A stretch of DNA of 35,362 nt, from assembly GCA_014730005.1 (NCBI GenBank), contig WJIY01000039.1:1-35362 (forward strand), read 5' to 3'. Source of the stretch: Candidatus Babelota bacterium. Lineage in GTDB: Bacteria > Babelota > Babeliae > Babelales > UASB340. The notes beneath the pieces are model-generated. The model had not been told where the DNA came from. It made no database searches and saw nothing but the letters and a program-made list of their open reading frames with translations. Positions 7,108-34,216 of this stretch are shown piece by piece. The first letter of the stretch is position 1; each line of letters opens with the position of its first letter. A program made the position numbers and the translations under genes.

Positions 7108-8448
7108 ATGTTAAAAAAAATAATCATTTTTTTAATTTTTACTTCTAATTTAGCAAATGCATCAAAAATAACTGTTTATAATCAATCTAAAAAACCAGTC
7201 CTAATAAAACTTGATATTAAAAACAAAAAGGATAAAAAAAAAATAATTCCCAGCTTAGGAAAAATGGAAGCAACTGGATTTGTTAAAAAAATAATAGCAT
7301 TAGAAATTGATCCTGGTAATAAAAAACACCCAAAACTAATTTCTTTAACATTAAAAAATCCCAAAAAAGAAAATAATTCTGTTGTATTTGATTATAATGA
7401 AAAAAACAATCCTATCCTCTATGAAGGTATGTATGGATTATCTAAACCGATAAGTTTTCTTACAATATCAGATCAACATCCCATAACAACAATTCCCTCC
7501 AATTTAAGAAACATAAACCAAGATTTATATAATTGGAAGAAAAGTAACCTCGAACAAAAAATAAAAGATCATAAAGAAATGTTTAAATTAAAAAATCAAA
7601 TGATGCAATATATAGCAAATAAAAATAATAATATTTGGGCCGTTATTATGGCAGGTGACATGGCTGGGGGATTTGGAAAAAAATCTGAAACCAAAGCATT
7701 TAAACAAATTTGGTATGACCCCTTAATGAATGCATTTAAAAAAGTTGGAGGCAATGTTTATGTAGGTATTGGAAATCATGATACTTATTGGTCAAGCCCT
7801 TCCGAGCCTAAACCGCCCGCAATATTGCGATTTATTAAAGAAACTTACGGTAGTTATCTTTATTCTTTTAATATAGGTCCTATTCATTTCATTCATTTAG
7901 GACTTCATCCTTCTATAAATAGACAAGATTTCAAATATAATCCTAATAAATTAGATAATTCCTTACTTTTTTTAAAAGCAAATCTTGCCGGTATATCTAA
8001 AACAACACCCATTGTTATTTTCTTTCATTATCCAATACATGGAGAAATGAGTGATTGGTGGACAAAAGCAGAAAAAGCCGACTTTTATAATACAATAAAA
8101 GATTATAATGTAATTCTAATAATTGTTGGACATCATCACAAATCAGCTAGATTTAGGTTTGGTAAAACATTCGGAGATAAGGTAATTCCTGTAGTACAAG
8201 CCGCTGGCGATGAATTCGCCATGATTAAATGGTCTCCATTAAAACCAACTGCTGTTGAAATTCAATTTATTAATAAAAAAGGAGAAAAAATACCCTATCC
8301 TATACAAAAAGCACAAATGGGAGATAAAATTGAATCAATTTTCAGAAAAGAAATTGAAAAACAAAAAAAATTAAAAAAATTAAATAATCTCAAAAATGAA
8401 CATCACAGATTTATAATGCAATTATGGGAAAAAGAAAACAAAAAATAA
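7108..8448 (+). CDS. Secreted calcineurin-like metallophosphoesterase with extra N-terminal domain
   Basis: Signal peptide MLKKIIIFLIFTSNLANA; phosphoesterase motifs SDQHP, AGDMAG, GNHD, FFHYP, GHHHK. Confidence 0.85.
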   Translation: MLKKIIIFLIFTSNLANASKITVYNQSKKPVLIKLDIKNKKDKKKIIPSLGKMEATGFVKKIIALEIDPGNKKHPKLISLTLKNPKKENNSVVFDYNEKNNPILYEGMYGLSKPISFLTISDQHPITTIPSNLRNINQDLYNWKKSNLEQKIKDHKEMFKLKNQMMQYIANKNNNIWAVIMAGDMAGGFGKKSETKAFKQIWYDPLMNAFKKVGGNVYVGIGNHDTYWSSPSEPKPPAILRFIKETYGSYLYSFNIGPIHFIHLGLHPSINRQDFKYNPNKLDNSLLFLKANLAGISKTTPIVIFFHYPIHGEMSDWWTKAEKADFYNTIKDYNVILIIVGHHHKSARFRFGKTFGDKVIPVVQAAGDEFAMIKWSPLKPTAVEIQFINKKGEKIPYPIQKAQMGDKIESIFRKEIEKQKKLKKLNNLKNEHHRFIMQLWEKENKK

Positions 8449-9996: not shown

Positions 9997-10815
9997 TCAA
10001 AATTGAGCTTCTTTATCTTTTAGATAATCTTTCTGACCAATTGTCAAACCGGTTGCATTACTAAAATTTGCATTAACAACAATCGCATTTTCGAAATTTG
10101 TTCCTTCCAAATTTGCATCTTCAAAATTTGCCCCTACCAAAAAACAATTTTCAAAATTTGCATTCTTCAAATCCGCATTTTTAAAACTTGTACCATTTAA
10201 AAAAGTATATGAAAAATTTGCTTCCTCAGCTTTTGCATTGTCAAAATTTGCAAACATTCTATTTCCATTATCTATACGCAAACTAATAGGATCCAAAATT
10301 TTACATGCAGTACCCCAAACAGACTCCTGCCAAAATTTAATTATCAAAATAAAATCATCTTTCAATGCTGTTAAAAATCGCAAATCTTCCGTTTTAGCAA
10401 ATTTTTTTTTAAAAACATCCCTGCCGGAACGAAAAGTGGTAAACAAACCTTTAATTAAATCTTCAATTGAATATGCAATGTCATGAAATAAAATTTGAAA
10501 ATCAGCTTGATTGGATGAAAGATCCGCCTTTTTTAAATTAGCCTCCTCAAAATTAGCTTTATATAAATTTGCACACTTTAAATTTGCTTGACATAAACAA
10601 CATCTTTTAAAACAAACATTAGAAAGATTACACTTAGCTAGATTAGTTTTTTTAAGATTTTTACCTTCAAAATTTCGTTCCTTTAAATCTTCATAACTTA
10701 AATTGCATTCCGATAATTCTTTAGTATTCAAATCATCTAAAGGCTCCGATATTAAACAATTAAAATTTGAAAAAAATATGAAAAATAAAAATGAAAACGA
10801 AACAATTTTTTTCAT
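9997..10815 (-). CDS. Secreted pentapeptide-repeat protein
   Basis: Signal peptide, then A(D/N)LxX repeats: NLKKTNLAKCNLSN..ANLKCANLYKANFEEANLKKADL and FKNADLKNANFENCFLVGANFEDANLEGTNFENA. Confidence 0.88.
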   Translation of the reverse strand: MKKIVSFSFLFFIFFSNFNCLISEPLDDLNTKELSECNLSYEDLKERNFEGKNLKKTNLAKCNLSNVCFKRCCLCQANLKCANLYKANFEEANLKKADLSSNQADFQILFHDIAYSIEDLIKGLFTTFRSGRDVFKKKFAKTEDLRFLTALKDDFILIIKFWQESVWGTACKILDPISLRIDNGNRMFANFDNAKAEEANFSYTFLNGTSFKNADLKNANFENCFLVGANFEDANLEGTNFENAIVVNANFSNATGLTIGQKDYLKDKEAQF

Positions 10816-26994: not shown

Positions 26995-27858
26995 ATGAAC
27001 TATTTAAAAAATATTTTTTTCGCTTGCATAATAAGTTTGACATTTATAAATCAGCTAAAACCAATGGCTTATCAAGAAAACAAAATTACATCTTTTGCAG
27101 GTATAGGAAATCGTAGTAATATGGAAGATCAGTATCAAATCATTGAAAATTGGAATGGGGAGAAGATAACATACTTGGGAGTTTTTGATGGTCATGGAGG
27201 TAGACATATAGCTAAATATTTAAAAAAGTACTTACATGAAACTATTCTTAATATATACAAACAAAACAATGATTTGATAAAAGCAATAAAAGTTGGTTTT
27301 AATAAAATTAATCAAGCCATACAAAAACTCCCTCGTTATAAAATAGGTTCAGGTTCTTGCGCGATAGTAGCATTTATTTTGAATGATAAAATAATTATTG
27401 CAAATTGTGGGGATTCAAGGGCCGTTCTTTATAAAAACGACCCAATAGTTCAACTCTCCAATGATCATAAACCAGATTCACCAACAGAACGAGAAAGAAT
27501 AAACAAAGCTGGTGGTAAAATTTCTGAACGTTTTTTTTACGAGTCTTGTAATGTATGGGTTCCCGCAAGATTAGAAAACTTCTCGGTTTCTAGGGCCTTT
27601 GAATATTTTAATCGCGATAATATTGTACAAGGCCTAATATATGAACCCGAAATAACAACTTATGACTTGCAGGGTGATGAAGAGTTTTTAATTTTAGCAT
27701 CTGATGGTATATGGGATGTCTTATCAAACGAAGAAACTGTTAATTTTGTAAACGAAAATAAAAATTTAAAAACCAATATAAGTGAACTTTTATATCAAAA
27801 TGCTATGGACAAAAAAACCAGAGATAACTGTACAAATATAATCTTTAGATTTAAATAA
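26995..27858 (+). CDS. Secreted PP2C-like protein phosphatase (copy A)
   Basis: Signal peptide; NRSNMEDQY, GVFDGHGGRH, GSGSCAIVAFI, ANCGDSRAVL, LSNDHKPD, LASDGIWDVL, RDNCTN. Confidence 0.92.
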   Translation: MNYLKNIFFACIISLTFINQLKPMAYQENKITSFAGIGNRSNMEDQYQIIENWNGEKITYLGVFDGHGGRHIAKYLKKYLHETILNIYKQNNDLIKAIKVGFNKINQAIQKLPRYKIGSGSCAIVAFILNDKIIIANCGDSRAVLYKNDPIVQLSNDHKPDSPTERERINKAGGKISERFFYESCNVWVPARLENFSVSRAFEYFNRDNIVQGLIYEPEITTYDLQGDEEFLILASDGIWDVLSNEETVNFVNENKNLKTNISELLYQNAMDKKTRDNCTNIIFRFK

Positions 27859-28091: not shown

Positions 28092-29018
28092 ATGAAAATT
28101 AATAGTTGTCTAAAAAATATCATTTTCATAATAATTTTACTATTAACAAACAAAATAAAGCCAATGGAATGCGAAATTACAAAACATGTCTTACAAAATA
28201 ATAAACCAATTCGATGTCCCGAATTTCCAAATAATAAATTCACCCGCGAAAATGAAGATAGAGATATAATAAATCGCGAATGGGATAAAGATATAATATA
28301 TTTAGGAATTTATGATGGACATGGTACTTCAGATACTGCTGAATACTTAAGAAATAATTTACATTCAAATATTCTTAAAATATATCAACAAACAAATAAC
28401 TTAATTAGAGCAATCAATCAAGGTTTTAGTCAAACAAACAAAGAAATTCTTCAAGATGAAACAATTAAGAATTCAGGATCTTGCGCAATAGTGGCATTTA
28501 TTTTGAAAGATAAAATAATTATTGCAAACTGTGGAGATTCGCGAGCAGTTCTTGGTAAAAATAATCAAATAATTCAACTCTCCAATGATCATAAAATCAA
28601 CAATGTCAATGAACAACAACGAATAATTCAAAACAACGGCTTGTTAAATATTGTACCAGCAACAACTATAAATCCATACACAATGAATAGTCACTCCGAT
28701 ACTACTTATAAAAATCAAAATTGGAATACTCTTGCAATCGCTAGGACATTTGGCGATGCAATGTTTGTTGAACCACCAATGCCTGCAGGTTGTATAATTG
28801 CAGAACCCGAAATAACAACTTATGACTTGCAAGGTGATGAAGAGTTTTTAATTTTAGCATCTGATGGGCTTTGGGATAAAATTAAAAATCAAAAAATTTA
28901 TAATATTATAAACCTCAACCAATCAAAGAATACAAGTGAAATTTTAGCAACAAAAGCTCGTCAAAAAGGTTCCGCAGATGACATTACTGTTATAACGTTA
29001 TATTTCAAAAGGCAATAA
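28092..29018 (+). CDS. Secreted PP2C-like protein phosphatase (copy B)
   Basis: Signal-like N-terminus; NEDRD, GIYDGHGTS, NSGSCAIVAFI, ANCGDSRAVL, LSNDHK, IARTFGDAM, LASDGLWDKI, SADDITV. Confidence 0.9.
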   Translation: MKINSCLKNIIFIIILLLTNKIKPMECEITKHVLQNNKPIRCPEFPNNKFTRENEDRDIINREWDKDIIYLGIYDGHGTSDTAEYLRNNLHSNILKIYQQTNNLIRAINQGFSQTNKEILQDETIKNSGSCAIVAFILKDKIIIANCGDSRAVLGKNNQIIQLSNDHKINNVNEQQRIIQNNGLLNIVPATTINPYTMNSHSDTTYKNQNWNTLAIARTFGDAMFVEPPMPAGCIIAEPEITTYDLQGDEEFLILASDGLWDKIKNQKIYNIINLNQSKNTSEILATKARQKGSADDITVITLYFKRQ

Positions 29019-32226: not shown

Positions 32227-32712
32227 TTATTGTCCAGGCAATCCAGGTGTATTTTCGTCAGGTCCGGCAAAAGTTGTAACAGTTTGCATATGCATTTTTG
32301 GTGCAGGAATCATTGTTTTACTCATAATAGGCTTATTATTTCCTACCATTATAAATGGATAAAAACCCTCAATTTGACCTGTAGATCCAGTAGCTATCTT
32401 AGGATAAACTCCAAAAACAACATGTTTACCATCCCAACCTAATCCAGCACCACCATGTTTTGCCTCTAATGTAATTTTATTACCCCCAACGTAAAATGAT
32501 GCTTCAACTTTACGTATTAAATATCCTAAAACACCTTTGCTTATAGACTGTCCACTGCCAAGATCATTTTGTGCATCTCTTCCAGAAACAATATCTAGTT
32601 TGTAATGCACTACATATGGAGAATAATTATAAAAATGCCATGTGTATGCAGCTAAATGATTTACAAACAAAAATGTAAAAATTGCTACTACAAAAAATGT
32701 TTTTTTCTTCAC
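32227..32712 (-). CDS. Small secreted protein, array member P1 (chimeric: shared leader, different mature domain)
   Basis: GTG start; leader MKKKTFFVVAIFTFLFV identical to P2/P3, followed by AYTWHFYNYSPYVVHYKLDI and an unrelated body. Confidence 0.8.
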   Translation of the reverse strand: MKKKTFFVVAIFTFLFVNHLAAYTWHFYNYSPYVVHYKLDIVSGRDAQNDLGSGQSISKGVLGYLIRKVEASFYVGGNKITLEAKHGGAGLGWDGKHVVFGVYPKIATGSTGQIEGFYPFIMVGNNKPIMSKTMIPAPKMHMQTVTTFAGPDENTPGLPGQ

Positions 32713-32764
32713 GTCTCTTCCCCAAAAAATAATATTAATAACACATTTTTTTACTTACTACTTT
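32660..32764 (-). repeat. Leader+spacer cassette copy at the P2/P1 junction
   Basis: Near-identical to ~33150-33256 and ~33640-33745, differing at a few positions and one C-run length. Confidence 0.9.
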
Positions 32765-33203
32765 ACTTTTTCTTTTTACTTACTTTTTTATCTCCAACCT
32801 GCGCAGTAAAACGTTTCGTTCCAATAGAGCTAAAAATAATCTTTAAAGGAAACTCTTTTGAAATAAAAGGTCTCATACTAATATTAAGATTTTTTAATTC
32901 TAGCCGTGCTATAACTTTATAAATAATGTCATAACGGGGACCAACAACCCTTCGTTCTTTAACTTTAAATATTACTAACATTTTATTAATTTTAGTGTCA
33001 AAGTCGAACCTTTCAAAGCGATAAGCATTAGGAATTATTTCATATTCTTTCATATTATTTATTCCACTTTTATTTTGCACATAAATTTTACATACAACAA
33101 AAAAATTTGTCTTATTAATAAGCTTTGCATATGTATCTACCGCATAACTTTTTACAAACAAAAATGTAAAAATTGCTACTACAAAAAATGTTTTTTTCTT
33201 CAC
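32763..33203 (-). CDS. Small secreted protein, array member P2
   Basis: GTG start at 33203 by homology to P1/P3 (the track start 33236 adds 11 residues upstream); near-identical to P3. Confidence 0.8.
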   Translation of the reverse strand: MKKKTFFVVAIFTFLFVKSYAVDTYAKLINKTNFFVVCKIYVQNKSGINNMKEYEIIPNAYRFERFDFDTKINKMLVIFKVKERRVVGPRYDIIYKVIARLELKNLNISMRPFISKEFPLKIIFSSIGTKRFTAQVGDKKVSKKKK

Positions 33204-33254
33204 GCCTCTTCCCCCAAAAAATAATATTAATAACACATTTTTTTACTTACTACT

Positions 33255-33692
33255 TTACTCTTTCTTTTTACTTACTTTTTTATCTCCAACCTGCGCAGTA
33301 AAACGTGTCGTTCCAATAGAGCTAAAAATAATCTTTAAAGGAAACTCTTTTGAAATAAAAGGTCTCATACTAATATTAAGATTTTTTAATTCTAGCCGTG
33401 CTATAACTTTATACCCATATATCAATTCCCCTGCGAATGCTTGCACCGCTTTTTTAAATATCACTAACATTTTATTAATTTTAGTGTCAAAGTCGAACCT
33501 TTCAAAGCGATAAACATTAGGATTTATTTCATATTCTTTCATATTATTTATTCCACTTTTATTTTGCACATAAATTTTACATACAACAACAAAAGATGTC
33601 TTATTAATAAGATTTGCATATGTATCTACCGCATAACTTTTTACAAACAAAAATGTAAAAATTGCTACTACAAAAAATGTTTTTTTCTTCAC
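33255..33692 (-). CDS. Small secreted protein, array member P3
   Basis: GTG start; signal peptide MKKKTFFVVAIFTFLFVKSYAVD, LINKTSFVVVCKIY, C-terminal QVGDKKVSKKKE. Confidence 0.8.
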   Translation of the reverse strand: MKKKTFFVVAIFTFLFVKSYAVDTYANLINKTSFVVVCKIYVQNKSGINNMKEYEINPNVYRFERFDFDTKINKMLVIFKKAVQAFAGELIYGYKVIARLELKNLNISMRPFISKEFPLKIIFSSIGTTRFTAQVGDKKVSKKKE

Positions 33693-33715
33693 GTCTCTTT
33701 CCCCAAAAAATAATA

Positions 33716-34216
33716 TTAATAACGCATTTTTTTACTTACTACTTTATTACCAATTTGACACAAAAATTCTGATGGATTATTAAGTCCATGCCCACGACAG
33801 CTAACAACGATCCTCAAAGGTGTTTTTGCTGATGCAAAAGATGCCATCTTGGTATTTAAATTTTTTTCAAATTTTATTCCCCTCATTAAAGTTCTTTGTC
33901 CATTTTTTGAAATATAAACGGCATTTGGAATTTCTATTACAACCTTTTTGGCTGTATCTAAAAAATCACCTTTAATTACTTTTTTAGCAGGATGAACAAC
34001 TAATGCTTGAGGAAAGCCAATACTATCATAGCTAAGTCGAGCTAAACCCACTTCTCCTTTGACGCTTTCGATATTTTTATTTTTATCTTGCTTGTAAATT
34101 TTATATTTGACTGGAAACTGAGTTTTATTAACTATGTTTATATATGCATCTTTTGCATAATTATTAACAAACAAAAAAATAAGTATTGATAATATAAAAA
34201 CTATTTTTTTATTCAT
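33716..34216 (-). CDS. Small secreted protein, array member P4
   Basis: Signal peptide; DAYINIVNKTQFPVKYKIYKQDK and C-terminal QIGNKVVSKKMRY match the family pattern. Confidence 0.78.
   Translation of the reverse strand: MNKKIVFILSILIFLFVNNYAKDAYINIVNKTQFPVKYKIYKQDKNKNIESVKGEVGLARLSYDSIGFPQALVVHPAKKVIKGDFLDTAKKVVIEIPNAVYISKNGQRTLMRGIKFEKNLNTKMASFASAKTPLRIVVSCRGHGLNNPSEFLCQIGNKVVSKKMRY

Follow-up and report, generated by a model that had tools for sequence, protein, structure and literature searches.

The closest described systems to the protein considered here are the class III metallophosphoesterases (PF00149), among them purple acid phosphatase, GpdQ and Rv0805/Icc, and the PPD1-type phosphatases. 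Plant PPD1 is a purple acid phosphatase with an N-terminal Ig/FnIII-like domain, for which a role in substrate (DNA) selectivity and binding has been proposed (PMC4062093). PPD1 is a precedent for a beta-sandwich that precedes a metallophosphoesterase and has a proposed substrate-binding role.

A secreted calcineurin-like metallophosphoesterase of 446 amino acids is encoded at positions 7108 to 8448 (+) of the window, which is the whole stretch of 35,362 nucleotides that was analysed and one entire contig of the genome (1.15 Mb, 58 contigs, 27% GC) of a tiny parasitic bacterium, which relatives found in searches place in the Dependentiae (TM6/Babelota). The enzyme shares its core fold (as judged by profile and Foldseek comparison) and its metal motifs with purple acid phosphatase, GpdQ and Rv0805/Icc, and differs from them in its low identity, its secretion, its orphan N-terminal extension and a predicted long C-terminal helix. 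As in the PPD1-type phosphatases, a beta N-terminal domain stands before the metallophosphoesterase core, the beta fold in the enzyme being predicted only; unlike in those, no relation by sequence was detected between the extension and the N-terminal phosphatase domains in Pfam.

The open reading frame, the signal peptide and the strings quoted in a preliminary description from the enzyme and from two proteins of an array in the same window (P1 and P4) are all present on reading. The signal peptide of the enzyme (residues 1-18, MLKKIIIFLIFTSNLANA; 7108-7161, +) has a K-rich start, a hydrophobic core and an ANA-S cleavage site that places the cut between MLKKIIIFLIFTSNLANA and the following S, and it passes a crude signal filter. 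The metallophosphoesterase core occupies about residues 117-395 (7456-8292, +) and matches PF00149 over residues 162-345 with an E-value of 1.1e-10 and a score of 42.8 bits (gathering cut-off 21.5). The metal-binding motifs (DxH, GD, GNH(D/E), H, GHxH) are found as D122-Q-H124, G183-D184, G222-NHD225, H307 and G341-HHH344; the metal-site residues D122, H124, D184, N223, H224, H307, H342 and H344 are all there, and most of these residues are invariant or near-invariant across relatives. Among solved sequences, profile comparison puts Rv0805/Icc, purple acid phosphatase and SbcD nearest, and the best Foldseek matches of the AlphaFold model of the core, which is mostly at pLDDT 50-86, are mammalian purple acid phosphatase and GpdQ. 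Judged from its sequence, the enzyme is an exported two-metal calcineurin-like phosphoesterase that looks active. No relatives of the enzyme or of the array were found in the viral contigs searched, and the phage records searched gave a single weak phosphoesterase match.

Between the signal peptide and the core, whose motifs run from D122-x-H124 onwards, lies the orphan extension (residues 19-112, about 94 residues; 7162-7443, +), which is probably all-beta. Searches of Pfam, NCBIfam, PHROGs and the PDB sequences gave no family match for it, and none of 101 genomes of the phylum yielded a credible homolog. The AlphaFold run on the enzyme used an alignment of its relatives, and the extension was still modelled at low confidence (pLDDT 30-53); from residue 18 to residue 131 the model has some seven short strands and is free of helix. 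The strongest near-miss in Pfam is the Ig-like PapD_N, which falls on the 20-residue stretch discussed below and is insignificant (E=0.11); none of the purple acid phosphatase N-terminal (FnIII/Ig-like) Pfam families was matched at E-values up to 10, a search in which HMMER filters may drop weak matches. The fold is probably a small beta-sandwich. Apparent matches of the extension to EF-G (best E 2.5e-4) in the phylum-wide search were set aside as chance since they fall on a single conserved stretch of EF-G that recurs from genome to genome, with neither the signal peptide nor the domain context.

Because the N-terminal modules on the enzyme's relatives are of quite different kinds, the best reading of the extension is as an accessory module specific to its lineage. 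Other Dependentiae metallophosphoesterases resemble the enzyme in having a related core and a module before it, whereas the modules themselves are unlike the extension: two Methyltransf_FA domains and a tectonin domain in L004, pentapeptide repeats (with a C-terminal DUF4214) in L007, and an unrelated, unassigned stretch of 80 residues in L003/L053. Two further relatives (L005 and L002) are without an N-terminal module. Since the N-terminal modules differ in every relative, the core is a chassis on which N-terminal parts can be exchanged.

The array with which the extension had been compared lies on the reverse strand and consists of P1 (32227-32712), P2 (32763-33203, with a GTG start at 33203 assigned by comparison with P3), P3 (33255-33692), P4 (33716-34216) and P5 (34234-34731). 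It had been described as one family, and this holds for P2-P5, which are a real family; P1, in which the array leader is joined to a mature domain unlike that of P2-P4, belongs to it mainly through the leader plus the same 20-residue block, and not at the level of the mature protein. The first 51 nt of the P1, P2 and P3 genes are 100% identical, and the junction DNA of these genes (32653-32782, 33151-33274 and 33640-33746, -), which spans the end of the preceding gene, the spacer, the ribosome site and the signal peptide, is 97-98% identical over 107-124 nt. The DNA for the mature part of P1 is unrelated to that of P2 and P3 (0.41-0.43 ungapped identity), and hhalign gives P1 a probability of 0.72% against P2-P5, the aligned part being only the same 15 residues of the block. 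Between P1 and P2/P3 the leader is conserved and the mature domain exchanged. The P4 model (mean pLDDT 61) is mostly beta and has no structural match in the PDB. A PDB match of P1 to HisF (E 7e-4) was rejected, as this barrel protein has an unrelated fold, and a match of the array HMM to thymidine kinase (E 0.0015) is a chance one that warns about E-values from tiny low-complexity profiles.

Outside one variable stretch with sharp bounds, the DNA of P2 differs from that of P3 at 8 of about 398 aligned sites (about 98% identity). Within that stretch, which covers some 43 aligned bases at about 32922-32963 and 33414-33452 (-) and holds 30 of the 38 mismatches, the two are wholly different (VKERRVVGPRYDII versus KAVQAFAGELIYG). 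The two versions are not inversions of each other and no donor copy was found in the genome; the stretch looks like a cassette swap or a hypervariable segment. An independent array is present in another Dependentiae family (L023 301-2840, genome G036), where six of seven small genes form a secreted-protein family. Most of its leaders have 76-90% DNA identity, the gapped identity of the next 150 nt is near the background level at about 0.5-0.6, and this array is also species-restricted.

The likeness between the enzyme and the array is concentrated in a block of 20 residues after the signal peptide. In the enzyme this is KITVYNQSKKPVLIKLDIKN (residues 20-39; 7165-7224, +), which pairs with TWHFYNYSPYVVHYKLDIVS in P1 (32584-32643) and with equivalents in P2 (33072-33131), P3 (33561-33620), P4 (34085-34144) and P5 (34603-34662). 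The block aligns without gaps and in the same register across the enzyme and P1 to P5, starting 1-3 residues after the signal peptide, and the enzyme has the x-phi-x-N-x-[ST]...K-[IL] arrangement of P2-P5. N and K stand at fixed spacing in the enzyme, P1, P3, P4 and P5, and N-x-[ST] occurs in the enzyme, P1, P3 and P4, with V instead in P5. Each protein was cut at the end of the block, and block and remainder were compared separately. Shuffles of the block alone gave p-values for the enzyme of 0.0001 (P1), 0.003 (P4), 0.003 (P3) and 0.03 (P5). Because plain shuffling destroys strand alternation, odd and even columns were also permuted separately, which gave 0.00015 for P1 alone, 0.0013 for P1 plus P3-P5 and 0.0145 for P3-P5 only; the first pattern pointed out in the preliminary description therefore exceeds chance, all p-values given here being somewhat optimistic because the pair was picked by eye from the same data.

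Profile ranks give a similar picture. With a block profile built from P1-P5, only two other windows in the whole proteome (316,904 windows, 1058 ORFs) score as high as the enzyme or higher, which ranks first among 221 non-member mature N-termini with 11.7, the next scoring 7.2. When the profile is built from P2-P5, P1 is first among non-members and the enzyme third (p about 0.014). A weak match of the extension (E 0.0097) is to a member of the L023 array, which starts with the same phi-x-phi-x-N-x-[S/T] strand type, and a motif made from this unrelated array alone places the enzyme 5th and P4 2nd among 226 mature N-termini and P1, P2, P3 and P5 at ranks 34-157, as expected of a generic pattern. 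A regular expression for the motif found no new block members in the secretome of the genome; its matches are proteins that we take to be TolB and a Hint-domain-like protein. The mature start of a 1501-amino-acid exported protein with repeated segments in the same genome (L119 5888-10393, +) is LLRITNDTEYQILFEESVIVPP, again of the N-x-T strand type.

Beyond the block, the region that follows in the enzyme aligns with P1, P3, P4 and P5 at chance level (p 0.11-0.97; 0.11-0.84 for the tail against P1). The whole-domain alignment of the extension with P1 reaches p 0.002-0.014, with the signal coming from the block, and the comparison with the other array proteins is not significant. A second shared pattern had been proposed at residues 52-67 (KMEATGFVKKIIALEI; 7261-7308, +). 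Its spacing was misread: the enzyme has K52xxxxG57xxKKxxA and P1 has KxxxGxxxRKxxA, so that the glycines fall at different positions, and the pattern is unsupported because the spacing differs and everything past the block aligns at chance. Profile-profile comparison had been set beforehand as the check on a common domain, to be refuted if no significant alignment appeared, and that is how it came out, at 0.14% for the extension against P2-P5 (hhalign). The profiles were only 1-4 sequences deep (effective depth 1-2) and may miss a remote relation because both sides are species-restricted; among the genomes compared, neither the extension nor P1 nor P2-P5 occurs outside this species. A phmmer search of the 1058 genome ORFs with the extension lists P1 far down, at E=14, and the array HMM does not find the enzyme in its own genome even at an E-value of 20. 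P2-P5 resemble the enzyme in the Sec signal peptide and the first 20 or so mature residues and differ over the remaining 100-125 or so residues, their mature proteins having 124-145 amino acids and the extension 94. Of the single beta-rich domain that had been suggested, it is the resemblance of the first 20 or so residues that stands.

The reading we prefer, with a probability of roughly 0.55, is that this Sec-exported phosphoesterase carries an accessory module particular to its lineage, probably a beta-sandwich, and that its block came to resemble those of P1-P5 by convergence. The enzyme would leave the cytoplasm by the Sec route, and the extension would serve to place it, in the periplasm or in the protist host, at a substrate, a surface or a partner; the other, unrelated modules on its relatives would serve comparably. 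The block would be the first beta-hairpin after the signal peptide, and its pattern, phi-x-phi-x-N-x-[S/T]-x-x-[P/V]-phi-x-phi, is one at which exported beta-sandwich domains, Ig-like or other, could arrive independently. We infer convergence rather than descent, as well as a putative binding role. The PF00149 match, the intact motifs, the likeness of the core to Rv0805/Icc, purple acid phosphatase and GpdQ, the swapping of modules in relatives, the end of the similarity after the block, the ranks given by the L023 motif and the near-miss with PapD_N count for this reading. The low confidence of the modelled extension counts against it, and the enzyme-P1 p-value of 0.00015, stronger than a generic pattern needs, and the margin of 11.7 to 7.2 count against a convergent block. 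It is doubtful, if conceivable, that a single family of beta-rich domains occurs both by itself in the array, above all as P1, and fused to the phosphoesterase, having diverged past detection except in the first hairpin. Such descent would agree with the block significance (0.00015 for enzyme and P1, 0.0013 for enzyme and array), the alignment of the first 100 residues with P1 (p 0.002-0.01), the same position relative to the signal peptide, the shared genome and contig, and the best rank of the enzyme among the 221 mature N-termini. It is opposed by the lack of any likeness past the block, the hhalign value, the many chance matches that phmmer ranks above P1 and the drop to third place without P1, and its p-values are optimistic since the pair was chosen after viewing the sequences.

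Low-complexity composition favors chance, in that K/N/I/V-rich amphipathic beta strands are alike at 27% GC and the enzyme and P1 could be the best-looking pair among about ten secreted proteins; unrelated proteins do score comparably or better, as with thymidine kinase and EF-G. Chance is nevertheless an unlikely explanation, given that the block is ungapped and identically placed and that permutation with alternation preserved still gives 0.00015-0.0145. Finally, the start of the block 1-3 residues after the signal peptide in six of six proteins and its length of about 20 residues would suit an early-mature export or sorting signal common to the enzyme and the array with no domain relationship. 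This is very improbable: among the remaining secreted proteins of the genome only L100:7191-10280 comes near in score, and weakly, so such a signal would serve very few proteins, and the block also resembles an ordinary beta-hairpin. With regard to the preferred accessory module, the best reading is that its first hairpin is like that of the array proteins either by coincidence or through remote derivation from it.

Other exported proteins are encoded in the window. Two neighbouring genes (26995-27858 and 28092-29018, +) encode PP2C-type protein phosphatases (E 1e-55 and 4e-49) that have signal peptides, are eukaryote-like and are likely exported, and a secreted pentapeptide-repeat protein (9997-10815, -) has four secreted paralogs elsewhere in the genome. 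One speculative and rather improbable idea is that Dependentiae keep fast-diverging small secreted beta-domains as tandem arrays in which the leader and junction DNA is conserved and the mature parts can be exchanged, and that one of these domains was captured as an N-terminal targeting module of a secreted phosphoesterase. If the domain were shared, a secreted enzyme would be linked to a species-specific array of exported orphans, and this would be a first handle on what these orphans bind in the protist host. For now, the locus encodes a secreted phosphoesterase bearing yet another front module specific to its lineage, and exported orphans are very common in this phylum; in Chromulinavorax destructans, 44% of coding sequences have a signal peptide (PMC6561590).
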